Virus record (IMG/VR): IMGVR_UViG_3300009080_000022
Span: 1-42,614 of that record
Direction: 5' to 3' (one strand)
DNA from: a virus
DNA: 42,614 nucleotides
Shown: one piece after another, positions 2,915-41,492 of the stretch
Layout: the number at the start of each line of letters is the position of its first letter
Numbering within the stretch: the first letter of the stretch is position 1
Translations under genes and position numbers: made by a program
The notes under the pieces: model-generated
Told to the model about the DNA's origin: nothing
Seen by the model: only the letters and a program-made list of their open reading frames with translations
The model's database searches: none

Positions 2915-3345
2915 ATTTTTAGTTCTTTCTCTGTTAGGATTTTAAATTGCCATTTTCTGTCTTTACAATATTTAGTTGCTGCTCTCCACTTTGCATCATT
3001 TACAACATATGTCACGACTTCATTTATATACCTCTTTGTACGACGCTGTTGTTTTTGGGGAGGTGCTGTCTGCTTAAACGGTTTGATCTCGATAATAAAT
3101 TTCTCCGTCCCCCCAGTTTTAGTTCTTGCTCGGACATAGAAATCTGGGAAATAGCGATGGACCCTATTATCAAGAGGAGAGATGTAAGGGATAACAATTT
3201 CTTCACTTCCCCATTGTAAAACATTTGGATTGCTGTCACACCATACCATGAATTTTCTTTCCCATAAAGAGCGGTAGATAACATTTGTAGGGTCCCCCTT
3301 ATACTTATTTGGATAAGATGGTTTGTACTTTCCACTATATGCCAT
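2911..3345 (-). CDS. 4: Head completion protein gp4 (gp50/gp65 family)
   Basis: This 144-residue protein is a clear match to T4 gp4, needed to finish DNA-filled heads so that tails can join. Diagnostic stretches are YRSLWERKFMVWCDSNPN (about residues 24-41), EEIVIPY, HRYFPDFYV (about 63-71), FIIEIKP and the lysine-rich tail ending in WQFKILTE. The E...PDF...EIK pattern resembles a PD-(D/E)XK nuclease core, a known feature of this family; whether it cleaves DNA is not settled. It is the first gene of the minus-strand operon and is read divergently from the gp54-like gene across a 44-base gap. Confidence 0.92.
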   Translation of the reverse strand: MAYSGKYKPSYPNKYKGDPTNVIYRSLWERKFMVWCDSNPNVLQWGSEEIVIPYISPLDNRVHRYFPDFYVRARTKTGGTEKFIIEIKPFKQTAPPQKQQRRTKRYINEVVTYVVNDAKWRAATKYCKDRKWQFKILTEKELKI

Positions 3346-3389: not shown

Positions 3390-4070
3390 ATGAAGATAAC
3401 CGATGTTATGACGAATATAGTAGGTCCAAATGGACTTGCGTCTTCAAATCGTTATCAAATATCATTCCAATTTGGTGAAAGTCCTGCTCTTGCAGATGCA
3501 GTTGGACGTGATTTTATCGGTGTACCTGAAGCAGATATTTATGAAACTAGTGCATTAAATAGTGATGCTGCAAAATTAAGTTATCTTGCAGATGAAGTTA
3601 ATATCCCTGGATTTAGTATCAGTACTGGTGATTTTGAAGGGCATATGCCTGGAATGAATCAAAAGTATGCTCATACTAAAACGTTTAGAGATTTTACAAT
3701 TACCTTTTTGATGGACCATGAGCATCTTCCTTATAAGATGCTACATAGGTGGGCAGAATTCATCTTTCCGTTTCAGGTAAGCAATGGTGTTTCTATTGAA
3801 AATAGTAATACTGGACCACTTTTGAGGAATTATGTTCTAACTAATTATTATAATGATTATACCTGCAATATGGTCATTGATAAAGTTGAACCTACATTTG
3901 GTGAGAGGGACACGTCTAAAAAACTACGTTCAAAATCTACACTATTCCTTTATAATGTATACCCATATTTGATCAATGATATTACTGTTTCTAACGGTCC
4001 AAATCAATTGCTCAAATTTCAAGCATCATTTTACTTTGAATATTCTAAACTTCTTAAAGAAGACAATTAA
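3390..4070 (+). CDS. 54: Tail-tube initiator-like protein (gp54/gp19 fold)
   Basis: This 226-residue protein has the tail-tube fold pattern. Segments are VNIPGFSISTGDFEGHMPG (about residues 70-88), TKTFRDFTITFLMDHEHL (about 96-113) and YKMLHRWAEFIF (about 115-126). A C-terminal strand pair follows (TLFLYNVYPYLINDITVS, then LKFQASFYFEYSKLL). T4 gp54 has equivalent stretches (a strand ending SFRMD, then YRAMQDWV, and a closing TTFDVTFAYRV). gp54 starts polymerisation of the gp19 tube on the hub. The protein is shorter than T4 gp54 (320) and longer than gp19 (163), so another tube-like baseplate protein remains possible. It heads the plus-strand hub operon, behind a late-promoter octamer. Confidence 0.68.
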   Translation: MKITDVMTNIVGPNGLASSNRYQISFQFGESPALADAVGRDFIGVPEADIYETSALNSDAAKLSYLADEVNIPGFSISTGDFEGHMPGMNQKYAHTKTFRDFTITFLMDHEHLPYKMLHRWAEFIFPFQVSNGVSIENSNTGPLLRNYVLTNYYNDYTCNMVIDKVEPTFGERDTSKKLRSKSTLFLYNVYPYLINDITVSNGPNQLLKFQASFYFEYSKLLKEDN

Positions 4071-4091: not shown

Positions 4092-4793
4092 ATGTCACTT
4101 CCTACCCTGAGTTTGCCAAGTTATGAGTTGGTAATTCCTTCCTCAAAAAAGAAGGTAAAATATAGACCATTTATGGTTAAAGAGGAGAAAATTCTCCTGA
4201 TGGCATTAGAATCTGAAGATGAAAAGCAAATTGCTGATGCATTAGAATCTATCATTGCCTCATGTATAATCACTAAAGGATTTAAAGTTCAAGATTTAGC
4301 AACTTTTGATATTGAATATATTTTCTTGAATATTAGAGCAAAATCTGTAGGTGAAATTATCGAATTGCTCATACCATGTCCAGATGATCCTGAGACCGAT
4401 GTTAAGGTTACTATTGACATTGAACAAGTAAACGTTGAATTTGAATATGGTCATACTAATAAGATTAAGTTGGATGATAACCTTTGGATTGAAATGAAAT
4501 ATCCTGGTATTGATACTTTTGCAAATCCTCAAGAAGATATTGATGATTCCTTTAAATTTGTAGCAAATTCAGTTGCTAAAATTTATAATGATGAGGAAGT
4601 GTGGGATACTAATACTACAACTGAACATGAATATATTCATTTTATTGAGCAATTAAGTTCAAAGCAGTTTGCAAAACTTCAAAAATTCTTTGATACTATG
4701 CCATCCCTTCGTCATAAACTTAAGTTAGAAAATCCAAAAACAGGATTTGAGTTTGAATATGTAGTTGAAGGTCTTTCCAATTTTTTCGTATAG
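4092..4793 (+). CDS. 26: Baseplate hub subunit gp26 (tail assembly chaperone type)
   Basis: This 233-residue protein belongs to the T4 gp26 baseplate-protein family (T4 gp26 is 208 residues). Signature stretches are LPSYELVIPSSKKKVKYRPF (about residues 8-27), KEEKILLMALESED, and a beta-rich core with a C(P)xD pattern in LIPCPDDPE (about 94-102). Its start follows a GGAG at 4080-4083 with good spacing. The last codons AAT TTT TTC lie on a slippery heptamer, and the -1 frame beyond is open, so part of the product is probably extended into gp51 (see 4781-4787). gp26 is needed for hub assembly in T4. Its place just before the tape-measure candidate is that of the first of two tail assembly chaperones in other phages. 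Confidence 0.85.
   Translation: MSLPTLSLPSYELVIPSSKKKVKYRPFMVKEEKILLMALESEDEKQIADALESIIASCIITKGFKVQDLATFDIEYIFLNIRAKSVGEIIELLIPCPDDPETDVKVTIDIEQVNVEFEYGHTNKIKLDDNLWIEMKYPGIDTFANPQEDIDDSFKFVANSVAKIYNDEEVWDTNTTTEHEYIHFIEQLSSKQFAKLQKFFDTMPSLRHKLKLENPKTGFEFEYVVEGLSNFFV
4781..4787 (+). other. Candidate -1 ribosomal frameshift site T TTT TTC
   Basis: In the gp26 frame the codons are AAT TTT TTC GTA TAG, so bases 4781-4787 form an X XXY YYZ heptamer (T TTT TTC) two codons before the stop. A slip back by one base gives the next codons CGT ATA GCC CTC TTT, a frame that stays open through the gp51-like gene to TAA at 4973-4975. The fused product would be 294 residues (232 from gp26 plus 62). The extra residues before the gp51 ATG read as real protein (RIALFHNSLENYYRSNFAL). 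The layout matches frameshifted tail-chaperone pairs such as lambda G/GT. Efficiency cannot be judged from sequence. Confidence 0.7.
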
Positions 4794-4814
4794 CCCTCTT
4801 TCATAATTCTTTAG

Positions 4815-4837
4815 AAAATTACTATAGGAGTAATTTT
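4815..4837 (+). other. Hairpin with Shine-Dalgarno-like loop downstream of frameshift site
   Basis: AAAATTAC (4815-4822) pairs perfectly with GTAATTTT (4830-4837), leaving a seven-base loop. The sequence AGGAG at 4826-4830 lies in the loop and first stem base, 13 bases before the ATG at 4844. It might tune internal initiation of gp51. It begins 27 bases past the slippery site, farther than typical frameshift stimulators, and the stem is AT-rich, so a stimulator role is doubtful. Confidence 0.4.
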
Positions 4838-4843
4838 GCATTA

Positions 4844-4975
4844 ATGCAACACCACAAATATAGTTTAACAGAGATAGATAATTTAATTCCTTGGGAATAT
4901 GATATCTACACTACTTTGTTAAGACAGTATTTGGAAGAGGAAAAGAAACGTATCGAACAACAGCGTAGAAGTTAA
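4844..4975 (+). CDS. 51: gp51-like baseplate hub assembly protein
   Basis: From the ATG at 4844 this encodes 43 residues, MQHHKYSLTEIDNLIPWEY onward, ending in a charged helix (YLEEEKKRIEQQRR). Cyanophages carry a short gp51 at this place; T4 gp51 is much longer (about 249) and acts catalytically in hub assembly. The frame is also open upstream back through the end of gp26, and the residues there (LFHNSLENYYRSNFAL) look like genuine protein. It is therefore probably made as a gp26-gp51 fusion by -1 frameshifting at 4781-4787, perhaps in addition to internal initiation here. Its stop overlaps the next ATG by one base (TAATG). Confidence 0.65.
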   Translation: MQHHKYSLTEIDNLIPWEYDIYTTLLRQYLEEEKKRIEQQRRS

Positions 4976-7695
4976 TGAGATTTAAACCTAAGGGTAAGCC
5001 TAAAAAAGGCAAATCTAAACCTCAAACTAGTATTATTTCTAAGGGACTACAATCTCTATTTGGAAATAAAAAGAAATCTTCCTCTAATGGTGATAATAAG
5101 AGGAAGAATGCTGGTGGTGGTTCTTATGGTTTAGATAATTATAATGGCATGATAATGGAAATTTATGATGCTAATACTACTACTCCAGAAGGTGTTAACG
5201 AAACAATACCTGTCGAGAAAAAGGAATCAAAGGAAGGAGAATCTAAGTTAGTATCTGAAACGCTAAGATTAAGAAATACTGCAGTTCTTAACTTAAAATT
5301 AAAAGAACAAATATTTAAGTATGAGAAGAATAGATTAAATAAATTAAGATTAGGTGGTGAAGGCAAAGCAGGAGGAGCAGCAGCAGGTGCCAGTGAAGGA
5401 GTTACACCTATCATTCCTGGAGAAGATGGTGGAGGACTAGGATTGCCGGGTGTATTTGGAACTCCCTTCAGAAAAGCACCTAGAAGGACTCCAAAAACTA
5501 ATCCTAATCAACCTAAAAATAGAAATAAGAGTAGAAATAAAAATAAGAGTAGAAATAAAAATAAGAATAGAAACAGGAATAAACCTAGATCATCTAATAA
5601 ACCTGTAACTAGAGGTAAGGGGGGTGCAAGACCTAATCCATTTAGGAGGTTTAATCCATTTAAACCTAAAGTTACTAGTGGTAAACCTGCGGTTCCTCCT
5701 GGTTTAAACAACCCATTCAAGGGATTAGGTAATCCATTTAAAAGATTTGGTCCTAAACCTAGTATTACAATAGGTGGTGCAAATAAAATACCAAAAGGAC
5801 TCAATAATCCTTTTGATGTATTCAAGAAGGGACCAAATGTAACACGATCAATGCCACAAATACCTAGAGGATTGCAAAGTCCTTTAGGTGGTCTTGGATT
5901 ACCTAAGATTAGAAATCCTTTTGCCGGACCAAAAGTAACTACTGGTGGTGCTACCAGACCATTTGGACTTGGACCAGGAGCATCACCAACAGTTACTGGT
6001 GGTGCCGGTGCGGGTCCTTTGGGTGGAATTGCTTCTAAAATTAAAGTACCACCAGGATTAGCACGTGCTGGAGGAATGGCTAGGGGTCTTGCTAGCAAGG
6101 CGCTTGCTCCATTGCTTTTATTAGATGGGTATTTTACAGCCAAAGAAATAGTTAATCCTAATGCTAATATAATTACCAATATCATGGATCTTAGTACAGG
6201 TATCTCGAATGCCTTTAAATCAGATCCTTTTACCAGAAGTTTGACGGAACCCCGTGGTGATATTAATACCATGGAAGATAGAACTCCAGAGAGTAACGCT
6301 TGGAAACTTAATGACAAAGGAAATAGACGTATACTTGCTGAACGTCAGGCAGCAGATCCAAAAAAATATCTTGAACAAAAGCAAAGTATTATAGAAAAGT
6401 ATCCATCAACAGCAAGATACTATGACAATCCCATCCCTGAAATGAAAGAGGGTGGTATTACAGAAGATAAACCACAACTGGTTATTGTTGGAGATGGGGG
6501 TGAGAAGGAGTATATCGTTCCTGAGAGTAAATTATCTTATTTCTTAGGAACAAGTCAAGCAGCAAAATATTTAAACTATGGTGTATCTCCACTTGTAACT
6601 GCTGCTACCGACTATGCAAAAGCAGCAGGAATAAAAACATATGGCATCCCTGAGTTGCAAGATCTTACAAATATACAAAGAGATATTGCGTCACCAATTA
6701 AAGGAATTGCCCTAATTCAAACTACATTTAGTGATCTGGGAGATACAATTTTTGATTATGTAACGAAAGGGTTCATGTCTATCATGGAACCTGTTAAAAA
6801 GATTATTGAATTTGTTAAAAATATAATTCCACCTGGTATTAAAAAAGTAGTAACAGGTGTTACTGGATTTATGGGTAGATTACTTGGTGGAAGACCTGCA
6901 GCGGCAGCTACTCTGCCACCTAGTTTAAGAAAAACTCTTAATGGCAATTTAAATATGAGTTCTGAGGGGGTATTCAATACAGGACTAAAAACTGGTAAAT
7001 CTGCATATATTGGTGGATCCTCTGATTACCACATTGACACTAAGTTTAACTCTTCTCTTTCTATGGAAGAAAAGGTAGCAATGATGGATCAACTTGCAGC
7101 AGGATATGCTGCTCAGGGTAGAAAGATTGAATTCTCTAATAGTATGATTGCCAATACAATATATGATCCTAGTGCTTCTATGGAAGAAAAGAGTGCTCTA
7201 TTACAAAGAGCATTTGAAGCACATAATATTCCTAGGGGACGTGCTATTGATCAAGGTGGTTTCAATAGTATTGATTATTATGCTCCTCTCATGGGAGAAA
7301 ATAGATTTGGATCTAGTGTAGAAGGTCAGGATATTCTTGTTCCAACAGTTGATGGTGGTAAAGTAAATTACCATCAAGGTGGAGGATATGGTGCATTTAT
7401 TACCATGACAGATGCTCAAGGAAATGTTATTTTAAAAACAGGTCATGGTGATGTACGAACTGCAAAATCTGGAAGTGTTAGTGTTCCATCTAAACCTGCA
7501 CTAAATAAAGATACTGCAGTAGATCAAGATCCAATGGATGAAATTCAAGCAGATCTTCCATTAATGAATTTATTTACACTGCCAACGCCACCACCACCGG
7601 ATCCTTTGGTTATTCCATTATCTACTAGATTAGGACAAAAACTGTCTTCATCAAATACTCCTGCCTGGGGTAATGCTGCTCTTATTGGAGGTTGA
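4975..7695 (+). CDS. Tape-measure candidate with degenerate M23-like domain, 906 aa
   Basis: This is probably the tape measure protein, the T4 gp29 counterpart. The N-terminus is basic and low-complexity, with an Asn/Lys/Arg run at about residues 180-209. Six or so spaced NPF motifs follow (about 220-330), then a hydrophobic stretch at about 365-395. Residues 493-520 hold GGITEDKP...VGDGGEKEYIVPESKL, matching the motif (GGI...VGE.G.EAVIPL) common near the C-terminal part of phage tape measures. Residues 757-830 (FNSIDYYAP at 763-771, then GGGYGAF, then GHGD at 823-826) resemble an M23 peptidase core in which the first metal-binding His is Asn764, so activity is doubtful. It directly follows the chaperone pair, the usual tape-measure position. 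Many cyanophages annotate this gene only as structural. Confidence 0.6.
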   Translation: MRFKPKGKPKKGKSKPQTSIISKGLQSLFGNKKKSSSNGDNKRKNAGGGSYGLDNYNGMIMEIYDANTTTPEGVNETIPVEKKESKEGESKLVSETLRLRNTAVLNLKLKEQIFKYEKNRLNKLRLGGEGKAGGAAAGASEGVTPIIPGEDGGGLGLPGVFGTPFRKAPRRTPKTNPNQPKNRNKSRNKNKSRNKNKNRNRNKPRSSNKPVTRGKGGARPNPFRRFNPFKPKVTSGKPAVPPGLNNPFKGLGNPFKRFGPKPSITIGGANKIPKGLNNPFDVFKKGPNVTRSMPQIPRGLQSPLGGLGLPKIRNPFAGPKVTTGGATRPFGLGPGASPTVTGGAGAGPLGGIASKIKVPPGLARAGGMARGLASKALAPLLLLDGYFTAKEIVNPNANIITNIMDLSTGISNAFKSDPFTRSLTEPRGDINTMEDRTPESNAWKLNDKGNRRILAERQAADPKKYLEQKQSIIEKYPSTARYYDNPIPEMKEGGITEDKPQLVIVGDGGEKEYIVPESKLSYFLGTSQAAKYLNYGVSPLVTAATDYAKAAGIKTYGIPELQDLTNIQRDIASPIKGIALIQTTFSDLGDTIFDYVTKGFMSIMEPVKKIIEFVKNIIPPGIKKVVTGVTGFMGRLLGGRPAAAATLPPSLRKTLNGNLNMSSEGVFNTGLKTGKSAYIGGSSDYHIDTKFNSSLSMEEKVAMMDQLAAGYAAQGRKIEFSNSMIANTIYDPSASMEEKSALLQRAFEAHNIPRGRAIDQGGFNSIDYYAPLMGENRFGSSVEGQDILVPTVDGGKVNYHQGGGYGAFITMTDAQGNVILKTGHGDVRTAKSGSVSVPSKPALNKDTAVDQDPMDEIQADLPLMNLFTLPTPPPPDPLVIPLSTRLGQKLSSSNTPAWGNAALIGG

Positions 7696-7698
7696 TAA

Positions 7699-10539
7699 AT
7701 GGCAAGGAAAAGGGATCCTAAAATATTAAGAAAGTCATACGAAGTTAAACTTGGTAAGAAACTTGCTGATCAACTTACTGATGAGCAGATTGGTCTTATT
7801 TCTAAGTATTATAACTCTTTGAGTGATAAAGAGTCGAGTGAACTTGATAGTCAACTTGTTCAGGGGAGGAATAATACTGAACTTCATGCGATGGCAGAGA
7901 GCATGGCATCCGAAAGGAAGGATAAAATTATTAGTAATAATAAAATTGTTACTACTAAAAAAAGTGAAAAAGTTTCTGTATATAAACCTGAAGATAAAAA
8001 TGTAGATGATTTTATTGAGAAAACAGAACAGAAGACAAAGGAAGCATTAGAAGAAACTTCTGATGCGATCATGGATGCAATTGATGAACTCATTGCAGCA
8101 GATAAGAAAAGATTTGAAGATTTTAAGAAGAAAACAGAACAAGAGGCGAAGGGTAAGTTTCAATATGAGAATCCAATTGGTCCTGATGCAATGCAGGGAC
8201 CAAAAGAACCTCCCGAGAAAAAAGAACCTGCTAAGAAAACTGAATCTCAAGTAGAAAATCCTTGGGAAGATGAAGTTCAAGATCAACTTGGAAATAAAAT
8301 TGATGATGTTCTTGATCAAATTAGAAAAGAACCTCTTCCTCAACCCACTCCATCTAAGAGAAGAAAAACTAGAGGTAAAAAGAAGTTTGATCGAAAGGTT
8401 TTATCTTCTGAAAGTATGGGTCTCAGTGAGCAATTATCTGAGATTAAAATTAATGTTATGGAGACGCGAGAAGCACTCTATAACATGTATAAAATTGATA
8501 AAGCAAGATTTGAATTTAAGAAAAGTATTGATAAAAAGTTAACTACCAGATTAGCAGCAAGAAAACGAGAAAAAGAACTTGAGCAGATTAAACCAGATCC
8601 AGGAGATTCAAATACTTCTGCTGTAGGGGAAGGAGAAAAGGAAGAAAGTGCATTGGGAGGTCTTTTAGATTTCCTGCTGGGTCCATTCAAAAAAGCAGGA
8701 ATTGCTGGTCTTAGTGCAGCATTATCAGCACTTGCATTACCTTTGATATTAGATGCTGTTGAGGATTACTTAACTAAAGATACAAAAGGTCCAAGAAATC
8801 AAATATGGGATCCACTTGGTATTATTCCTGATCCAGGTGAAGGTGAAGAAGATGATCCAGTTACTAAATTTTTCAATTGGTTTATTCCTAAAGCAGAAGA
8901 TTCTGCAGAACCATCTGTAAGAGATGGATCACGAACTCCTGAAAGTGAAGCAGAAGCATTTTCTAGTTTTTGGGGAGATATTTTTCGTTCACGTGAAGAA
9001 TCAAATGAACCATCTGTAAGAGATGGATCACGAACTCCACAAACTGGTTTTGATTATGTACCTTCACAAGATAGTAAGGGTAAAAAATATGATAAGGCAC
9101 CTTTAAGTATATCAGTTCGTCGTTCACGTGAAGAATCAAATGAACCATCTATAAGAGATGGATCAAGAACTCCACAAACTGGTTTTGATTATGAACCATC
9201 TATAAGAGATGGATCAAGAACTCCACAAACTGGTTTTGATTATGTACCTTCACCAGATAGTAAGGGTAAAAAATATGGTGAGACACCTTTAAGTATACCA
9301 GTTCGTCGTGCATTTGATGGAGGTAAATTTACTAGAGGTGTAAAGAAACCACTTAAACCAATTACAGATATTCCTCCTGTTGGATCCGGTGTTCAAAAAC
9401 TTACAAAACCACTTAGATCGTCTATTACTGTTCCTCAAAAAGTAGCAACTCTAGGTATATTAAATCTTGCTAATAGTATTCTTCAACCATTTACTTCAAT
9501 TTTACCAGAGGATGCAAATTCAGAAATTAAGAGTTTGTTTACAGGTATTACGTCTAAAAGTGGTTTAGGTAATTTTAATTTAAAAACTAAATCTAAAAAT
9601 ATATTTGATAAGATTAAATCATTTATTGATAATATATTAAATTCTTTGCTTGGAGGTTCTGCTCAAGCATCACCACAAACTCCTGTTGTTTCTGGTGCAG
9701 GTGGGGGTGAATATTATGGTCCTGCCTTTGGTCCATCACCATTAAACAGTAATTTGAGTACATCTACAGGTGTTGGGACAAAGGAACAGCGTGCTCTTCT
9801 CGATGCAATCGCTTTTTCAGAAGGAACGACAAAAAGTTATGGAACAATTTTTGGGGGACAAGTAATTCCTGAACTTGAAAAGGGTGAATTGACTATTGAT
9901 GAAGTTCATGCTATGATGATGTCTGGACAAGTGAAAGGTAGAAGTGCAGGATATTCTCCTGGATCTTTTGCTACAGGTAGATATCAGTTCATGCCAGATA
10001 CTTTACGAGATATTCAAAGAAGTATGAAATTGTCTGGTGATACTTTATTTACGAATGAGATGCAAGATAAAATGTTCTTAGACAGAACTGCATCATATAG
10101 AAAAGTTACGCCTGAACTTTTAGCGAAAGAAGGATTAAGTACAAATGTTCTTGATCGAATGGCACCAGAAATTGCATCATTTCCTAGTTCTGCTCATGGT
10201 GGTGCTAGTTATTATGGACAACCAGTAAAATCTGCTTCAAAACTTAGAGAAGTATATGACCAATCACTGAGGACACCAACACCCGAACCACCAAAAGTGT
10301 CTGGACTAACTCCAACTTCAGAGGATATGAGTTGGTATAATGATAAGATGAAACCTTCTACCCCAATAGATAAAACACCCCCTGAACCCGATCCAAAGAG
10401 ACAATTCAATCCAATGGAGACAATTAAGAATTTAATAGGTGGAACTCCTACAGTTGCTTCGCCAACACAAAAAGTTAATAAACCAAGAACTACTACGCCG
10501 ATAGGCAGTGACCCTATGTTACAACCAGGAGGTTATTGA
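7699..10539 (+). CDS. Tail hub protein with coiled coils and lambda-R-like transglycosylase domain, 946 aa
   Basis: The N-terminal half is rich in charged helices likely to form coiled coils (about residues 90-155 and 235-300). A hydrophobic segment follows at about 316-356 (GGLLDFLLGPFKKAGIAGL, then LPLILDAV). Residues 404-540 carry direct repeats built on RDGSRTPQTGFDY. Residues 696-800 resemble the lambda R / GH104 lytic transglycosylase fold: LLDAIAFSEGT (700-710, Glu708 as the candidate catalytic residue) and FATGRYQFMPDTL (757 onward). The C-terminus is Pro-rich. A good GGAGG precedes the ATG. The protein likely belongs to the tail hub or lumen and cuts peptidoglycan during DNA entry, replacing the lysozyme domain of T4 gp5. 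A second tape-measure-like role is possible. Confidence 0.62.
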   Translation: MARKRDPKILRKSYEVKLGKKLADQLTDEQIGLISKYYNSLSDKESSELDSQLVQGRNNTELHAMAESMASERKDKIISNNKIVTTKKSEKVSVYKPEDKNVDDFIEKTEQKTKEALEETSDAIMDAIDELIAADKKRFEDFKKKTEQEAKGKFQYENPIGPDAMQGPKEPPEKKEPAKKTESQVENPWEDEVQDQLGNKIDDVLDQIRKEPLPQPTPSKRRKTRGKKKFDRKVLSSESMGLSEQLSEIKINVMETREALYNMYKIDKARFEFKKSIDKKLTTRLAARKREKELEQIKPDPGDSNTSAVGEGEKEESALGGLLDFLLGPFKKAGIAGLSAALSALALPLILDAVEDYLTKDTKGPRNQIWDPLGIIPDPGEGEEDDPVTKFFNWFIPKAEDSAEPSVRDGSRTPESEAEAFSSFWGDIFRSREESNEPSVRDGSRTPQTGFDYVPSQDSKGKKYDKAPLSISVRRSREESNEPSIRDGSRTPQTGFDYEPSIRDGSRTPQTGFDYVPSPDSKGKKYGETPLSIPVRRAFDGGKFTRGVKKPLKPITDIPPVGSGVQKLTKPLRSSITVPQKVATLGILNLANSILQPFTSILPEDANSEIKSLFTGITSKSGLGNFNLKTKSKNIFDKIKSFIDNILNSLLGGSAQASPQTPVVSGAGGGEYYGPAFGPSPLNSNLSTSTGVGTKEQRALLDAIAFSEGTTKSYGTIFGGQVIPELEKGELTIDEVHAMMMSGQVKGRSAGYSPGSFATGRYQFMPDTLRDIQRSMKLSGDTLFTNEMQDKMFLDRTASYRKVTPELLAKEGLSTNVLDRMAPEIASFPSSAHGGASYYGQPVKSASKLREVYDQSLRTPTPEPPKVSGLTPTSEDMSWYNDKMKPSTPIDKTPPEPDPKRQFNPMETIKNLIGGTPTVASPTQKVNKPRTTTPIGSDPMLQPGGY
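8908..9315 (+). repeat. In-frame direct repeats encoding EPS(V/I)RDGSRTP units
   Basis: Four near-identical copies of a unit encoding EPS(V/I)RDGSRTP start at 8908, 9007, 9142 and 9193. Copies 2-4 continue into QTGFDY. Copies 2 and 4 extend into a VPS(Q/P)DSKGKKY...PLSI(S/P)VRR unit, and RSREESNEPS precedes copies 2 and 3. Nucleotide identity is high, pointing to recent duplication or gene conversion within the linker. Confidence 0.85.
10527..10533 (+). promoter_or_regulatory. Strong Shine-Dalgarno AGGAGGT fixing the gp27-like start
   Basis: A perfect AGGAGGT lies seven bases before the ATG at 10541, inside the 3' end of the preceding gene. It decides for 10541 over the in-frame upstream ATG at 10508, which has no such site and would overlap the previous gene by 32 bases. 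Confidence 0.8.
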
Positions 10540-12087: not shown

Positions 12088-14544
12088 ATGTTAGGTGCTG
12101 CCCCTACATTAGAATCTAATTACTGGTTTGGAGCGCAAGGTAATCGTCTCTGGGTGGGTCAAGTTGAGTGTGATGGTGATAAAACCATTACAGGAGATGA
12201 GTGTGTAGATTATCAAGAATCTAACCGAGTTAAGGTTAGGATTATGGGATATCACACTAGAAGTAGATCTCAACTCAAATCTCTTGATCTTCCTTGGGCA
12301 ACCGTTTTAATGCCAACAACTGAGACCATTAGTAGACATTCTGCTGGTGTAGTTCATGGTCTTGAAAATGGTATGTGGGTGCTTGGAACTTTCATGGATG
12401 GTGAAAGTGCTCAACAACCTCTTGTGATGGGTTCTATCGGAATTGTAGATAAAAGACAACAAACTTATACTGATAGAGTATCGGATAAGGGTCTTTCAAA
12501 TGATCATGCTGCGACACACCCAGAAAAGGTAAAAAACAATAAAGCATCTTCGGGTGGTCATGGTCAGTCAAATCGGGGCGAAAACACCGGAACATTTAGT
12601 GCCAATGATAAAGAACAGGAAAGTAATGAAAGACAAACTTTTACTGTTTCAAATGGCAAATGTGGTCCTAGACCAGAAGGTGACTTTGCTAAAATTTTAA
12701 ACGATCTTTTTCAATTTACAGGAAAGAATGAAAAGATTGGTGGGGTTTTTGTAAATAAACTAACTGGCAATATTGTTGAAACTGCTGGTATTATTCAAAC
12801 ATATGTTAGTAGATTAGCAGCAGCAGCAAGTGGTATTCTTGGGGATATTAAACAATTAATTCTTAGTGAGTTTAAAAAGTATTTTCAACAATTTATTATT
12901 ACACCAATTACTACTGCATTAGCACTTAAACCCACAAAAGATTCAGAAATTATTTGGGGTGCTAATAAACTAGGTGATGTATTCATTGAAATTTTTAAAT
13001 GTATTTTTGGAACTATCTTAGAGGAGTTATTAAACTTAATTCTAGACATTGTTACTGGGATTATTGACGACGCTGTAAACAGTGCATTTTGTATGGTCCA
13101 GGATATTATTTCTGGTATTACATCAAAAATTAGTGATTTGGTTGGTTCAGCACTTGGTGCTTTAAGCAATGTAACTTCACTTATTTCTCAGTATGGAGAT
13201 TGGGGTGGAAGTTGGTTAAGCAAAATTGGTGAATTAGTTGCTCTATTTTGTGATGGTCAACTTTCCTGTATTCTTGGTATTGGTGAATATACAACTAAAG
13301 AAGGTGAAAGTAGTGACAATTCTGTTGGTAGTTTTATGAATAGAATTGAAACATTTGGAAATCTTCCAAATGATGCTAAAATTGGATTATTTGGAAGTGA
13401 TTCTTTCCTGTCTACATTTGAGAATACTCAAATCATTGATAGCGATGGTAATGTATCAAAAGGAACATTAAATTGTTCTAAATCTAATAAGTTTACATTT
13501 CCTGCCATTCCAGAACTTGTATTTACTGGTCTTAAATATAAGTTTGATGCTGCTGTTGGAGATTTTCCTGGTCCGTTTCCTGGAACTTATTCAAAGGGTT
13601 CTAAGTATCCAAGAGCAATTCCAGTTATTAATAGTAAGGGAAAAATTATCGGTGCAAAAATTACAAATCCTGGGGTTGATATTTCTCCTGGAGTAAAAAT
13701 TTCAGTAAAACCTTATAGAGATTGGGGATCAGGTGCTGAACTTAAACCAATTATTAAAAATGGAAAAATTGAAGATCTTATTGTAATAAATGGTGGAGGA
13801 GGGTATCCGTATTTTGATGGATCAAATTTAAATCCTAGAATTCCTCTAATTGGTAATCAAGATGGTACTGGATCTGGCACCAATGGCACTGGAGACAGTA
13901 CTAATGGCACTGGATCTGGTACTAATAATGGCACTGGATCTGGTACTAATAATGGCACTGGAGACAGTACTAATAATGGCACTGGATCTGGTACTAATGG
14001 CACTGGATCTGGTACTAATGGCACTGGATCTGGTACTAATAATGGCACTGGAGACAGTACTAATAATGGCACTGGATCTGGTACTAATGGCACTGGAGAC
14101 AGTACTAATAATGGCACTGGAGAACCAGATTATGATAGAATCTATGGAATCTATGCTGAAAATCCGTATTGGATAGGAATTATTACTCCTAATAATCCTC
14201 CACAAGTTCTCAATGCGGGTGAAAATTTAGATGGTACTTGTGGTATTATTGTTGAACCTGGTAAAGATGAGGGAACTAATGTAGTTTTACCTGAATTAGA
14301 ACCAGTTATTGTAAATGGAAGATTAATTTCTATCAAAGTAATTAAAGAAGGATTTGGGTTTACATCACCGCCTAAAATGTATATGGCATGTACTAATTCA
14401 AATATTGATTCTAGTGATCAACGTAGAGTAAAAATTCAACCAGTTCTAAGATACATTCCTAGAAAAGACGCTAAAGATTATCTCAATTTGTTTGATGATT
14501 ATCGCGACATTATTGATTGTGTAGGATTCCCTGGAGATTATTGA
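12088..14544 (+). CDS. 5: gp5-like hub protein with OB-fold and Gly-Thr-Asn repeat, 818 aa
   Basis: The first 135 residues match the OB-fold of T4 gp5/VgrG-type hubs: WFGAQGNRLWVGQVE, RVKVRIMGYHTRSRSQL, LPWATVLMPTTETIS, GLENGMWVLGTFMDG, QQPLVMGSIG. After a polar linker come long hydrophobic or amphipathic helices (about residues 250-410). Then follows a beta-rich domain, an 83-residue repeat of GTG(SGT/DST)N(N) units at 593-675, and a C-terminal beta domain with NGRLISIKVIKEGFGFTSPP. No lysozyme domain as in T4 gp5 is visible, and the beta-helix is on the next gene. It likely forms the top of the central needle, bound to gp27. The gp5 symbol covers the N-terminal part only. Confidence 0.75.
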   Translation: MLGAAPTLESNYWFGAQGNRLWVGQVECDGDKTITGDECVDYQESNRVKVRIMGYHTRSRSQLKSLDLPWATVLMPTTETISRHSAGVVHGLENGMWVLGTFMDGESAQQPLVMGSIGIVDKRQQTYTDRVSDKGLSNDHAATHPEKVKNNKASSGGHGQSNRGENTGTFSANDKEQESNERQTFTVSNGKCGPRPEGDFAKILNDLFQFTGKNEKIGGVFVNKLTGNIVETAGIIQTYVSRLAAAASGILGDIKQLILSEFKKYFQQFIITPITTALALKPTKDSEIIWGANKLGDVFIEIFKCIFGTILEELLNLILDIVTGIIDDAVNSAFCMVQDIISGITSKISDLVGSALGALSNVTSLISQYGDWGGSWLSKIGELVALFCDGQLSCILGIGEYTTKEGESSDNSVGSFMNRIETFGNLPNDAKIGLFGSDSFLSTFENTQIIDSDGNVSKGTLNCSKSNKFTFPAIPELVFTGLKYKFDAAVGDFPGPFPGTYSKGSKYPRAIPVINSKGKIIGAKITNPGVDISPGVKISVKPYRDWGSGAELKPIIKNGKIEDLIVINGGGGYPYFDGSNLNPRIPLIGNQDGTGSGTNGTGDSTNGTGSGTNNGTGSGTNNGTGDSTNNGTGSGTNGTGSGTNGTGSGTNNGTGDSTNNGTGSGTNGTGDSTNNGTGEPDYDRIYGIYAENPYWIGIITPNNPPQVLNAGENLDGTCGIIVEPGKDEGTNVVLPELEPVIVNGRLISIKVIKEGFGFTSPPKMYMACTNSNIDSSDQRRVKIQPVLRYIPRKDAKDYLNLFDDYRDIIDCVGFPGDY
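13864..14112 (+). repeat. Coding minisatellite, 11 units of 21 or 24 bases
   Basis: Eleven tandem units encode GTG(SGT or DST)N or NN, followed by a partial twelfth. Unit types by residue length are 7,7,8,8,8,7,7,8,8,7,8, which keeps the frame throughout. Codons are almost identical between units (GGCACTGGATCTGGTACTAAT pattern, with AAT doubled in the longer ones). Such homogeneity means recent expansion by slippage or unequal recombination. It is a linker in the protein, not a CRISPR array. Confidence 0.92.
14533..14536 (+). promoter_or_regulatory. Shine-Dalgarno GGAG fixing the beta-helix gene start
   Basis: GGAG lies seven bases before the ATG at 14544, which overlaps the previous stop by one base (TGATG). 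This favours 14544 over the in-frame ATG at 14517 and adds a 321-residue product. Confidence 0.65.
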
Positions 14545-15509
14545 TGCCTAATTTTGATAAAGAACTAGCAAAAAAGAATGGTATGTCTGATGCTGCTATT
14601 GAGGCAGCAGACAGCATTAAAAAAACTCAAGAAAATGGAGCAGTAAAGTATCCTTATAACAAAGCAAAAACATTTGCTTGTGGACATAAGTGGGAGTTTA
14701 ATGAAACTGAGGATAATGAGTATATTAACTTCAGGCATGGAACTACTGGTGCATACATTAAAATGTTTGCCAACGGTGACATCCAATTACATACTCCGGT
14801 AAGAGATGTTAATATAATTGCTGCAAGGCATATTAACATTAAAAACGGATCAACAATGGATATTGAAGATCCTAGTAAAAATGATAGGTTTGTTCTTAAT
14901 GTTACCGGTAATGTCCATATGGACATTGAAGGTGACATGCATACTAATGTTAAGGGCAATCGTTATACCACCATCAATGGTGAGGATAATTTAACTGTTA
15001 AGGGTGCTTCGTTATATAATTACTCTGAACTTGGTGAGAATATTTCTGGAGACCATAAGTGTTCTGCAGGTAAATCTGTTACAACTGCCACCAATATGCA
15101 AAGAGATTTGAAACCTGGTGGTGTGATGCGTGATTCATTTGCTGGAACATATATCATTGAGCAAACAAGTCCTGGTGGTACTATGGAAATTAGATCAGCA
15201 GGTGATATGATTTTCAATTCACTGGGTCATATTCGATGCACTACACTCAGCAATTTGGACTTTGTAGTTAATGGTAAAGTTAATTACGCCATTACTGGTC
15301 TAAGAGTGATAGGATCTCCTACAGCGGTCCCTACGGGTCCTCTAGCACCCACTGAACCAGCATTTAATGTAATGGTAGCAACTGGTGCTATTAACCATAC
15401 CACTGCTCTTGGCAACATCAGTACCGTTGCCACCCTGGGAACCATGAATCTGTTTGCTGGTGGTCCGTTCCTTGATGTTGATTGTCTCACAGGAGTGTAC
15501 CTTAACTAA
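14544..15509 (+). CDS. Central spike beta-helix protein, gp5 C-terminal type, 321 aa
   Basis: This protein carries the spike part of T4 gp5 as a separate gene. After a helical N-terminus, the stretch FANGDIQLHTPVRDVNIIAA leads into five successive octads of the VxGxxxxx type at about residues 120-159: VTGNVHMD, IEGDMHTN, VKGNRYTT, INGEDNLT, VKGASLYN. Such octads form the triple-stranded beta-helix of gp5 and VgrG. A beta-rich region with Gly, Thr and Pro follows, ending LDVDCLTGVYLN. It is coupled to the OB-fold gene by a TGATG overlap, so the two likely assemble together as needle and hub. No gp5.4-type PAAR tip protein is seen next to it. Confidence 0.78.
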   Translation: MPNFDKELAKKNGMSDAAIEAADSIKKTQENGAVKYPYNKAKTFACGHKWEFNETEDNEYINFRHGTTGAYIKMFANGDIQLHTPVRDVNIIAARHINIKNGSTMDIEDPSKNDRFVLNVTGNVHMDIEGDMHTNVKGNRYTTINGEDNLTVKGASLYNYSELGENISGDHKCSAGKSVTTATNMQRDLKPGGVMRDSFAGTYIIEQTSPGGTMEIRSAGDMIFNSLGHIRCTTLSNLDFVVNGKVNYAITGLRVIGSPTAVPTGPLAPTEPAFNVMVATGAINHTTALGNISTVATLGTMNLFAGGPFLDVDCLTGVYLN

Positions 15510-16685: not shown

Positions 16686-19600
16686 ATGGCACTAACCCGA
16701 CTGCAGAACATTATATCTTCCGTTGAAGGAAGAATTATTTACGTCAATCCCGATGACTTTGATTCGACGGATGCAATTGACAATAAAGGAAACTCGCCTT
16801 TAAGACCCTTTAAGACAATCGCAAGAGCAGTTCTTGAGGTAGCAAGGTATTCATACGTCAGCGCAGGTAATGCTGACGATAAATTTGACCAGTTTACAAT
16901 TATGTTGTATCCTGGTGATCATATTGTTGATAACCGTCCAGGATCTTATGCTTACGCAATTGATGGAAATTCAAATTATGTTGGTGCTTTATCAGCAGTT
17001 CCATTCTCTGCTGGTCCTGTCTCTGGGCAATATGGTTGGTCTGATACGACTAGACAGTATGCAGATCTTTATAAAATTACTAACTCAGTCCGTGGTGGAC
17101 TGATTATTCCTAGAGGTGTTTCTTTGGTCGGCATGGACCTTAGAAAAACAAAGATTAGACCAAAATTTGTTCCTAATGGTGGAACAAATGATGTAACTGG
17201 TACAACTACGATTAGTTTTACAGCATCGGATACTAACCGTAATGAGTTAACTATTACGGGTGTTTCAAACGGTCCTGATGGTGTTAATAACATTAATGAT
17301 GTTATTATTGGATCTATATTTAAGAAGGGTGTTGCTGGATATTCAATTAGCAATACATTTACTGCAGGTGCAGGCACTCAGTATGATCCAGCAACTGGTG
17401 AGTTAATTCTTAATATTGGATCATTACACGGATTAACTACAGACAATAGTATTCGTATTGCAGACAATTCTCTTGCATTTACTTGTTTATCTGATGGTGG
17501 TAATTCTATAGTAACATATCCTCGTAATACAGACCCTGCATCTGATACTACTATTAGTATTCAATCAGTAGACGACGCAGGTGGAACAATTACTGTTAAC
17601 GTAGGAACTTCTTCAGAAACTTCAGCTCATACTTTTGTACCTGGATCATCTGGGTCAGGTAATATTACTGCAGTAAATACTGGACTGAAAATTCAGGAAG
17701 GGACAGTAATTACTGGTATTTCTACTCAAACTGGTAGTTCTTCTATCGCTGTTGAAATTTCCAAACCTCATAATTATCTCTTAACAGACGTTGGCAATGG
17801 AACTAATATTGGTGCTGGAATAGTTATTGATCTTCCTTATGAAGATGATAATAGTAGAACTGCCTTATTCAGAATTACTGGTGGTTGCTACTTCTGGCAG
17901 TTCTCAATTTTTGATGGTGATCCATCAGGTGTATATAAATCTACTACAGTAAAACCAGAACCAACATGGTCTTTGGTTGATGATTTACAATTTAGTCATA
18001 CTAAATTGACTGTATTTGAATATGCATCATTACACGATCTTAAAACATTTTACAGAAAAGTATCTGATGTAATTTCTGTTATCTCTAGTGAAAAAATTGA
18101 AGCAAAAATTCAAGAGAATAGAATTGTTGGTGCATTAGCAGATCAGGTATCTGTTACTAAAGTAACTAGAAATAATAGTATTGTAACTATAACTCTTTCT
18201 CAAGAACTTGAAATTACTGCCGGTAATTTTGTTGCAGTTAGAGGAGCAGTTAGTGCTGACAACAATGCCAACGCATATTATATTGGACAAAGGCAAGTTA
18301 CTACTGTCAATAGTGGGAGTGAGTTTACTTATACTCTTCCTTCTTCTTCAGTTACGCAACTTGATACTTTAGAAGCATCATCACCAGGAGATAGTGATAC
18401 TTCAACTAATGGAATGCAGGTTGAGTATGCTTCACCATCTGCTGATGTTCAGGTTGAAATTGATACCGTTGAATCTGCATCACCATATATTTTTAACGTA
18501 TCACTTAGATCCACCTATGGGATCTGTGGGATGCACGCTGACGGTTCCAGAGCAACTGGATTCCGTAGCATGGTCGTAGCTCAATATACGGGGATTAGCC
18601 TTCAAAAAGATGACAGTGCATTTCTTAAGTATAATGGCACTACTTTTGTTACTCAAAGTGGTAATGACTCTTTGCATACAGATGCAGAAGCAATTTACAA
18701 CCCTAAACAGAGAAGTTACCATGTAAAGGCATCTAATCGTGCTGTAATTCAAGCAGTTTCTGTTTTTGCTGTTGGTTACGCAGATCACTTTATTGCTGAA
18801 GACGGCGGTGACATGAGTATCACCAACTCAAACAGTAATTTTGGTATGAATTCGATGAGATCCATTGGATTTAGTGACCAAGCATTTAAGAAAGATGCTC
18901 TTGGTAAAATTACACATATCATTCCACCAAGAAATGTAGAATCTACTCTTTCTAATAGTTACTATGAATCTATTGACACCTTAAAAACACAAGCATATGG
19001 TGTTGCAAATTCTTCTTCAAGAATTTATCTCTCAGGTAGAGATGATTTCTTAGCAATCACTAGTGGTGGATCTAATTTTACATCAGGAAATGTTACTGTT
19101 AAGGATTCTACTGGACAAAATAGAACGATTATTTTAAGTGCAACTAATGGAGTTGTAATTAGTGCAACTTTCTCAGGTGGTTATGGAACATTCCAACCAG
19201 GGGATATTGTTACTATCCCAACTAATGCTGTTGATGGTGTTGGTTTAGATTGTGTTCTGACTATTGGTAATGGATTACTGAGAAAAGTTGGCAAATTCAC
19301 TGTTGGTAGTAGAGTTCTTGATAAAGATGGATCTACTATTAAGGATAATATTTATGTGCCTTTATATGAAACTTCAAGTGCAACTGCCACCAGTGAAAGA
19401 TATGCAGAAATTACTCCTTCACTAGGAAATGTTTTTGATTATGATTCTACCAACCCCCAAACAAATACAGCAGGTGGATGGTATATTAATGTAGATAGTT
19501 CAACAAATCAAATTTACACTGCTATTAATGGTAATACTAAGTATGGTTTAAATAAAATTGAGGTCACGCCTACATCATATATTAAGAGAATTGTTGATGA

Positions 19601-38927: not shown

Positions 38928-41492
38928 ATGGCAAATCAAGGTTTTGTACAACAATTAAATCTCGCTGAAGTTACTGATGGCGAAAAGATTATTAATAACC
39001 TTGCAGGAGGTACATCTGCAAAAGATTTACAAGTATTCAAAGGATTATCTTCTGAGAAATCGTTACTGTTTTTTAATAGATTTCAAAATACTGCGATAAC
39101 TGAAGAATCTGCAAAATCAATTGAACTTGGAACTAAATTTATATTTAATAGTGTATTTAATTACACAGATGATGATGTTGTTGAGATTCAACCTATTAAT
39201 CTAATTGAAGATTTTAGTTTTGAATATGTAGGATTTGCTGCTGACGGTGTAATATCAAATCCTTTGGCAGGTTATGATATTACATTTGATAGAGGACAAT
39301 CATATGAACCTGGAACCTATCAAGTTAAATTTAAAGGTGGTAGTGGAACATTTGAATCTGCTGAAGCAACAGTTATAGTATCTGATGGTGCTCCTGGTTC
39401 TACTGGATTTCGTGGACAAATATCTTCTGTTGAAATTACTAGCAGCGGCACTACACAAGTAAGTGGTGATGATATTGTAGGATTTAAACAGGGAGAAGTT
39501 CTAACTGTATCACAATTTAAGGAGGGATCTTCAGCTTATACTGTAGGTGATTTGCCGGGTGATTTGTCGGGTGTTCCTGGACAAGGTTTTACCGTAACAT
39601 TGACTGGATTTCCCTGGAGAGTAATTTTAGTTGGAAATTATTCATGGGATCCTGCGGATTTAGAAACCCAAGAATTGTCGGTTGAGATTAGTAATACAAG
39701 TGAAAAATTAAATGGAACGTATGATATACTTAGACAAAATGGTGTAAACAAATTTATATCTTCAAATAATAGTACTGAAAAGGCATATGATATTAACAGG
39801 AAAATCTTTGCCCAAGAAAATATTACTACTAATTTAAATTTATTTGACGTTGATGGTGATGGAGTTCTCTCTACTTTTGATATTGATTTATTGGAAGTAT
39901 TCTTTATAAATAGTGAGAATTTTGATCAAACAATACTTGCAGATTTTCTTGATGATGTTAAAACTTGGGTGCAAAGTTATATTGCTGCAGGCAATGCACC
40001 AGGTAATGATGCTGTTAGAACTAATCCTGTTTCATTAGTAGCATATATGGAAGGGTTGAATAAGAAATTAATTAATATTGATGGTATTGGTGAAGATCCA
40101 AGTTCTTCTGATATTACATTATTACGTACTTACATTTCAAACTCTACCAACTCTGATGGTGCAACGGTAGTAAATCCAGGACTATTATATGAACCAATTG
40201 CTGCTAGTACTTCTATTAATCAATCAGAAGTAAATGTTACTGGATTAGGACATGTTATTGCAACCGGAGTAAGAGTAAGAGAATATCCTAATTACACCTT
40301 TACTACTGATGAATATGTAAAACCATTCTTTACGATCTATGAAAAAATAGCTGGATCTGATAAAAATATCTTTGATACTTTTTCTAAGTTTGGGAGAAAG
40401 ATGACATGCAAAACAAATCAAAGTAATTGGATTGCAGTTTCTATTGGCAGTTCTTATAATCAAGGAAATATTGATTATAGAATTGCAGACAAATTTACAT
40501 CAATTATCGATAATGTTGTAAATTATTTTGTAATTGTAGTTGCTTCAGGTGAAGGATTTTCTGTTGGAACAACATTTAGTATTTTCAATTTACAGGTAGT
40601 CAGTTCATTTCCTGTTATTGGTTCTAATGATACTGGTGTAGAGTATGGTATATTTGATGCAAATGGGAGAGATAATTTTTATCTTAGAACACAACCAAGA
40701 TCAACATTAGCATCTGAAAAAGAAATTGTATTGATCGCAGAATCATATATTCTAACATCAGATGAAAGCACCACATATGCTGGTCAAAATGTACCTACAA
40801 CAACATTATTCCCAGATGTTATCTTTAAGAGAGATGACTCTCTAACTATTGAAAATGTTGGTAATTTAGAACCACCTGAAATTCTTGAATCTGGTAATCA
40901 AGCAGAAGGATATGGTAGAGAAGGTGGATTTACTTATAATGTAGATGATGGATATACAGTAGAACTTGATAATGTTAGCAACACAGTAGATCAATCTACA
41001 TTTTTAAAAAATCGAAAGTATAGAATTGACTCAGATTTATATTATGAAAGAAGTATTAACGTTGATGGATTACTGACTGCATTTGATCCTGATAATTTTA
41101 ATAGTAATGATAATCAATTAGCAGAAGATGTATCACCTGGTATTTTTATTAGTGATGCAGGTTCACAAATTACTAATGATCTTAGATCTGACTTTGCTGG
41201 TAAGACACGTTCATTTTCTAGTGATTATAATCCATGGGAAGCAGTGGATGGTAAAATACAAACCACTTCATTTAGAGTCAATATTAATGATCTATTCTTC
41301 TCTACTAGTATTGATATAGATTTGCGTCAAAATGGACTTACCGTTGATAATAGTAAATTTGTCGATGGTAATGGTAACTTAGGAGAAACCTTATCAGATA
41401 ATTTTGCTATTGTTCCCGCAAATCCGACAGCATATAAATTAAAAGTCACTATTAATGGAGAAGAGTTCTTCATTATCATGAAGAAGGTCTAG
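38928..41492 (+). CDS. Tail fibre protein with dockerin-like calcium loops, 854 aa
   Basis: The N-terminus (VQQLNLAEVTDGEKIINNLA, SAKDLQVFKGLSSEKSLLFF) parallels the preceding LRR gene and may dock to the same virion site. Residues 307-318 form a DVDGDGVLSTFD loop, matching the calcium-binding DxDxDGxxxxxD of dockerins and EF hands, followed by IDLLEVFF. A second, weaker copy is at 383-401 (NIDGIGEDPSSSDITLLRTY). Dockerins have two such loop-helix units; here they are 76 residues apart, more than usual. The C-terminal half is beta-rich with fibre-like strands, closing with VTINGEEFFIIMKK. A calcium-stabilised fibre protein is the likely interpretation. Its stop overlaps the stop of the convergent next gene. 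Confidence 0.72.
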   Translation: MANQGFVQQLNLAEVTDGEKIINNLAGGTSAKDLQVFKGLSSEKSLLFFNRFQNTAITEESAKSIELGTKFIFNSVFNYTDDDVVEIQPINLIEDFSFEYVGFAADGVISNPLAGYDITFDRGQSYEPGTYQVKFKGGSGTFESAEATVIVSDGAPGSTGFRGQISSVEITSSGTTQVSGDDIVGFKQGEVLTVSQFKEGSSAYTVGDLPGDLSGVPGQGFTVTLTGFPWRVILVGNYSWDPADLETQELSVEISNTSEKLNGTYDILRQNGVNKFISSNNSTEKAYDINRKIFAQENITTNLNLFDVDGDGVLSTFDIDLLEVFFINSENFDQTILADFLDDVKTWVQSYIAAGNAPGNDAVRTNPVSLVAYMEGLNKKLINIDGIGEDPSSSDITLLRTYISNSTNSDGATVVNPGLLYEPIAASTSINQSEVNVTGLGHVIATGVRVREYPNYTFTTDEYVKPFFTIYEKIAGSDKNIFDTFSKFGRKMTCKTNQSNWIAVSIGSSYNQGNIDYRIADKFTSIIDNVVNYFVIVVASGEGFSVGTTFSIFNLQVVSSFPVIGSNDTGVEYGIFDANGRDNFYLRTQPRSTLASEKEIVLIAESYILTSDESTTYAGQNVPTTTLFPDVIFKRDDSLTIENVGNLEPPEILESGNQAEGYGREGGFTYNVDDGYTVELDNVSNTVDQSTFLKNRKYRIDSDLYYERSINVDGLLTAFDPDNFNSNDNQLAEDVSPGIFISDAGSQITNDLRSDFAGKTRSFSSDYNPWEAVDGKIQTTSFRVNINDLFFSTSIDIDLRQNGLTVDNSKFVDGNGNLGETLSDNFAIVPANPTAYKLKVTINGEEFFIIMKKV

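Follow-up and report, generated by a model that had tools for sequence, protein, structure and literature searches.

A putative −1 frameshift signal that would join phage genes 26 and 51 into one tail assembly chaperone gene

Phage genes 26 and 51 are annotated in databases as two genes, and the locus described here raises the question of whether they might instead be one tail assembly chaperone gene, the second part of which is reached by a −1 ribosomal frameshift. The window analyzed, 42,614 bases catalogued as a virus record, comes from a marine T4-like phage, and the features described below between 3390 and 7695 lie on its plus strand. A gene for a 226-residue tail-tube-family protein (positions 3390–4070; PF23849 Phage_TTP_2, E = 4e-17; phrog_45 tail tube, E = 5e-29) sits upstream of gene 26 (4092–4793), whose 233-residue product matches PF12322 T4_baseplate (E = 7e-65; 219.1 bits in a profile search, above the curated cut-off of 24.5) and phrog_150 baseplate hub (E = 2e-68) and would represent a short, TAC-N-like form. 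The open −1 frame at 4787–4975, comprised of 62 codons and a stop, contains the usual gp51 ORF and would encode the C-terminal domain of a long form; its peptide matches phrog_634 "baseplate hub assembly catalyst", i.e. gp51, with an E-value of 1e-27. Downstream, a gene for a 906-residue protein (4975–7695) starts at a TAATG overlap and is a tape-measure candidate by position. Because its matches to tape-measure families are non-significant (E = 0.04 and 0.08), placement of the gp26/gp51 pair upstream of the tape measure gene is plausible yet unproven.

Adjoining the tape-measure candidate, positions 7699–10539 encode a 946-residue protein with an endolysin-like C-terminal region (phrog_90, residues 688–861). 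A gp5-like hub lysozyme at 12088–15509 is split into two ORFs by a TGATG overlap at ∼14542, the first of which carries a Gly/Thr/Asn-rich repeat (NGTGSGTNGTGDST-like). A second frameshift at this pair (12088–14544 and 14517–15509) was considered and rejected, since the two ORFs simply overlap at a TGATG and no slippery heptamer is present there. Six very large ORFs of 854–1874 residues follow in succession at 16686–41492 and are perhaps tail fiber or baseplate proteins; the last of these (38928–41492), the one ORF of the six that was searched, had no PHROG match.

The 3′ end of gene 26 reads, in the 0 frame, AAT (4779–4781), TTT (4782–4784), TTC (4785–4787), GTA (4788–4790), and TAG (4791–4793). 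The candidate slippery heptamer T TTT TTC (4781–4787) is located within the overlap of the two ORFs and in the correct X XXY YYZ phase, as tandem −1 slippage requires. The first-pass annotation of this DNA had placed the heptamer in phase, two codons before the gp26 stop; the phase was right but the spacing was not, as the single codon GTA intervenes. As had been claimed, the −1 frame stays open from 4787 through gp51; it reads RIALFHNSLENYYRSNFALMQHHKYSLTEIDNLIPWEYDIYTTLLRQYLEEEKKRIEQQRRS* to the TAA at 4973–4975. The peptide ahead of the ATG commonly annotated as the gp51 start (4844–4846) begins at the Arg encoded from 4787 and is 19 residues long, exactly as first written. Normal reading would give gp26, with 233 residues, and slippage a predicted fusion of 294 residues (232 + 62).

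Three gp26 queries of IMG/VR, together with named phage records, supplied the relatives, and removal of sequences at least 90% identical left 92 complete non-redundant junctions. An in-phase T TTT TTN is found near the gp26 stop in 88 of the 92, as TTTTTTC in 76, TTTTTTT in eight, and TTTTTTA in four, with the one-codon spacing of the window in 70 of the 88 and a distance of at most eight codons in the others. In each of the 88, the −1 frame is open over 54–73 codons. Within the bodies of the gp26 genes, in-phase T6 occurs 11 times in 62,131 bases, or ∼20,700 codons. Against the ∼0.6 occurrences that chance would place within the final 12 codons of 92 genes, 88 were observed, and a chance origin of the heptamer at this position is excluded. 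Nucleotide conservation of the heptamer also goes beyond what retention of the Phe-Phe would require: such pairs at other places in gp26 (n = 91) are preceded by T in nine cases and are encoded mainly by TTTTTT or TTCTTT and almost never by TTT TTC, as compared with a preceding T in 88 of 88 and TTTTTC in 76 of 88 at the slip site. The heptamer is set back eight codons from the gp26 stop in five relatives (L083, L100, L126, L145, and L160), leaving a short lineage-specific gp26 tail past the slip site.

The heptamer is absent from three Ackermannviridae (FKP10, SFP10, and Kevin) and from Vibrio phage K452, where the junctions have ATTTTC, GTTTTC, or CTTTTT instead of TTTTTTN. These four have nevertheless kept an open, homologous −1 frame and likely use a different slip signal. 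The frame following gp26 resembles the gp51 extension, with its PWHL motif, in both the Ackermannviridae (L087, 3289–3462; L090, 3247–3420; L091, 3283–3465) and K452 (L089, 3208–3402), and in SFP10 this gp51-like stretch carries no annotation. The conservation that the first-pass annotation had named as a check, of both the heptamer and the open −1 frame, is thus borne out, with no −1-frame stop between gp26 and the gp51 ATG in any relative compared and the heptamer missing from just the four phages above.

Between the slip site and the putative gp51 Met lie 19 codons, which were compared in 27 disjoint sequence pairs. In the −1 frame, third positions account for 117 of the 204 substitutions and dN/dS is 0.16, as against 1.41 in the gp26 frame (stops in 88 of 88 sequences) and 1.63 in the +1 frame (stops in 78 of 88); the corresponding values are 0.15 for gp26 and 0.11 for the −1-frame part after the Met. 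Given the dN/dS in the −1 frame, this ostensibly "intergenic" stretch evolves as a translated −1-frame protein. Purifying selection on these codons had been named beforehand as a check, and the earlier impression that the residues look like real protein is upheld by it. The gp51 Met itself is dispensable, being replaced by Val, Ile, or Leu in eight of the 88 relatives, none of which has any ATG upstream, and the gp51 of P-HM2, as deposited, begins well inside the conserved domain. ATG 4844 is therefore probably internal to the fusion. The sequence AGGAG at 4826–4830, ∼13 nucleotides 5′ of this ATG, is a possible Shine-Dalgarno motif identified from sequence alone, through which some independently initiated gp51 is possible in this phage.

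A separate gp51 gene, translated from ATG 4844 behind this AGGAG or by re-initiation after the gp26 stop, with the T-run incidental, is very unlikely. An ATG does lie at or near the gp51 start position in 80 of the 88 relatives, the AGGAG precedes it in the window, databases annotate two genes, and Vibrio phage ValKK3 (TAATG) and Stenotrophomonas phage YB07 (TGATG) have stop-start overlaps at the gp26 stop. Against this reading stand the selection on the 19 codons upstream of the ATG as −1-frame protein, the loss of the ATG in the remaining eight relatives, the conservation of the heptamer beyond amino-acid need, and the distribution of Shine-Dalgarno-like motifs, which are present in 12 and missing in 68 of the 80 relatives that have the ATG. 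ValKK3 and YB07 (L088, ∼3329–3333, and L086, ∼3230–3234) carry the heptamer as well as the overlap, and coupled initiation could add a separate gp51 in these two phages.

It is most unlikely that the fusion is made by transcriptional rather than ribosomal slippage at the T run. The homopolymeric site, the A+T-rich window, and the runs of T7 or T8 in some relatives all agree with such a process; transcriptional slippage, however, is independent of codon phase and usually needs longer runs, and exactly TTTTTTC is found in one codon phase in 76 of the 88 relatives. Moreover, T6 runs in other phases are tolerated inside gp26 genes (48 of 59), and the RNA structure downstream of the site in relatives fits ribosomal slippage. 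Homopolymers are also prone to error, and a further reading takes the arrangement to be an artifact of sequencing or assembly, or a decayed fusion gene, confined to this one contig. This explanation is refuted by the occurrence of the same arrangement in 88 of 92 non-redundant relatives, including the isolates P-SSM2, P-HM2, S-RSM4, and Ah1, and its probability is negligible. The preferred reading is −1 ribosomal frameshifting at the heptamer.

Over the 75 nucleotides past the slip site, the RNA of the 88 sequences folds more stably than synonymous recodings do, with a mean z of −1.49 (57% below −1), as compared with −0.38 further downstream. Strong hairpins are predicted 3′ of the slip site in P-SSM2 (z = −3.2), Ah1 (−3.8), L013 (−4.5), L101 (−4.2), and L070 (−4.4). 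As these hairpins are strong but unlike one another, a fast turnover of frameshift stimulators between lineages is suggested. Dissimilar strong hairpins downstream of the heptamer were observed in L013, L070, L101, L082, and L085 (z of −3.2 to −4.5). A common RNA structure for all junctions was rejected, with RNAalifold finding no shared pairs over 18 diverse junctions and the structure being lineage-specific. In the window, the predicted A+U-rich hairpin of 9 bp at 4815–4837 has a z of −0.43, and no downstream structure was better than shuffles by a simple base-pairing prediction that is blind to pseudoknots. A Shine-Dalgarno-like motif upstream, a candidate stimulator, is enriched (76 of 88, as against 59% of control windows), although a Glu-Gly motif conserved at the protein level confounds this excess.

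The AlphaFold2 model of gp26 has a pLDDT of 87.9, with 55 aligned sequences. Among the matches listed for this model in the PDB, the highest probability was that of the HK97 tail assembly chaperone (PDB code 2OB9; probability 0.54, r.m.s. deviation 3.2 Å over 59 columns, E = 1.6), and no PDB match was significant by E-value; the model can thus be said to resemble the HK97 chaperone weakly. Searched against the sequences of solved structures, the gp26 profile gave nothing better than E = 1.1 and matched no solved tail assembly chaperone. A search of predicted viral structures returned gp26-family proteins with TM-scores of up to 0.87. The model of a T4-like gp51 (pLDDT = 85.6) also retrieves gp26-family proteins in a structure search and is predicted to have an order of elements similar to that of gp26, followed by a helical C terminus.

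In T4, the two genes lie on opposite strands, gene 26 on minus and gene 51 on plus, and frameshifting between them is therefore impossible. Residues 1–201 of T4 gp51, a complete protein of 249 residues, match PF12322, the Pfam family of gp26, with an E-value of 4e-52, and T4 gp26 itself aligns with T4 gp51 (E = 2e-6). In profile comparison, the gp26 family of the window aligns to residues 12–201 of T4 gp51 (E = 1e-11), and the −1 extension of the window, including the part before the Met, aligns to residues 204–245 (hhalign, E = 3e-7). Given profile matches over residues 1–201 and 204–245, T4 gp51 is a gp26-like domain joined to a homologue of the −1 extension, such that T4 carries the short and long chaperone forms as separate genes on opposite strands. 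A short protein and the same protein with a C-terminal extension are thus encoded through a predicted frameshift in the window, and the extended form by a single-gene fusion in T4 gp51.

In PMC3004832, T4 gp26 and gp51 appear among the hub assembly chaperones, and gp51 is needed for assembly yet absent from the particle. The gp51 proteins of cyanophage and marine vibriophage lack the first ∼200 residues of T4 gp51 (Sullivan et al. 2010, PMC3037559); the missing residues would correspond to the gp26 domain, supplied through the frameshift, which would explain an old oddity. On the evolution of the two arrangements, a scenario of middling probability is that T TTT TTN frameshifting is ancestral in the T4 superfamily, that T4 and its near relatives lost it when the gene was duplicated and one of the copies became a fusion, and that stimulatory RNA elements turn over fast around a near-invariant heptamer.

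Collectively, these data make it highly probable that genes 26 and 51 are one tail assembly chaperone gene, from which a −1 slip yields a minor gp26-51 fusion beside gp26. What is shown here is the slip signal, a coding −1 frame, and homology to the natural fusion, T4 gp51; slippage itself, its rate, and the chaperone role are inferred. The −1 frameshift fusing gp26 to gp51 that the first-pass annotation had suggested is well supported by comparative evidence, and is predicted to occur at 4781–4787. Most ribosomes would produce gp26, with 233 residues ending in NFFV, and a minority would slip back one base with tRNA-Phe on the TTT TTC of T TTT TTC, continuing in the −1 frame to give the 294-residue fusion (...NFFRIALF...). 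The chaperone role would follow from what is known of the family (T4 gp26/gp51), and the tape measure is a presumed partner by position. As with lambda G/GT, the tape measure protein would be bound during tail assembly by the part common to both forms, and the C-terminal extension of the fusion would recruit the tail tube subunit.

Lambda G/GT and other tail assembly chaperones of long-tailed phages are made by −1 programmed frameshifting, as Xu, Hendrix and Duda reportedly described in 2004 and as is reviewed in PMC5009743. The window shares with lambda G/GT two overlapping ORFs near a tail tube gene, a slip site toward the 3′ end of the first ORF, a −1 extension, and the combination of a short product with a long fusion, which in the window is predicted; the fold match to the HK97 chaperone (2OB9) is weak. 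The slip site of lambda is GGGAAAG rather than T TTT TTC, and lambda G is shorter than the 233-residue gp26. A 2016 review regarded G-T frameshifting as conserved in long-tailed phages "except T4" (PMC5009743). Under the frameshifting reading, one of the ocean's commonest phage groups would fit the general rule for tail assembly, to which T4 itself had been listed as the exception, and the "gp51" of cyanophage records would be either wrongly delimited or absent.

The first-pass annotation had supposed that a link of T4-like gp26 and gp51 to tail assembly chaperones had yet to be made, a view that is out of date: according to passages in PMC10885494 and PMC12846349, Vladimirov, Gautam and Davidson (2022, Virology 566:9–15, PMID 34826709) identified the tail assembly chaperone genes of T4-like phages. 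Neither citing passage names gp26 or gp51. As far as these passages go, the unifying idea that gp26/gp51 are tail assembly chaperones is already published in kind, and the present locus is unannotated, or wrongly annotated, as such. The system cited there is similar to the window in having a short form and a long fusion form and, as described in PMC12846349, frameshift signals of the poly-T type in T4-like TAC-N genes; the cited passage of PMC10885494 stresses that some T4-like phages have a short gene and a separate fused gene instead of frameshifting, whereas the window is of the frameshifting type. The chaperone locus of Vandenendeviridae and Andersonviridae (PMC12846349) likewise has a conserved T-rich motif at the end of TAC-N, an uninterrupted −1 frame through an "intergenic" stretch, and a misannotated second ORF, although it belongs to other phage families and its motif is GTTTTT rather than the TTTTTTC of the window.
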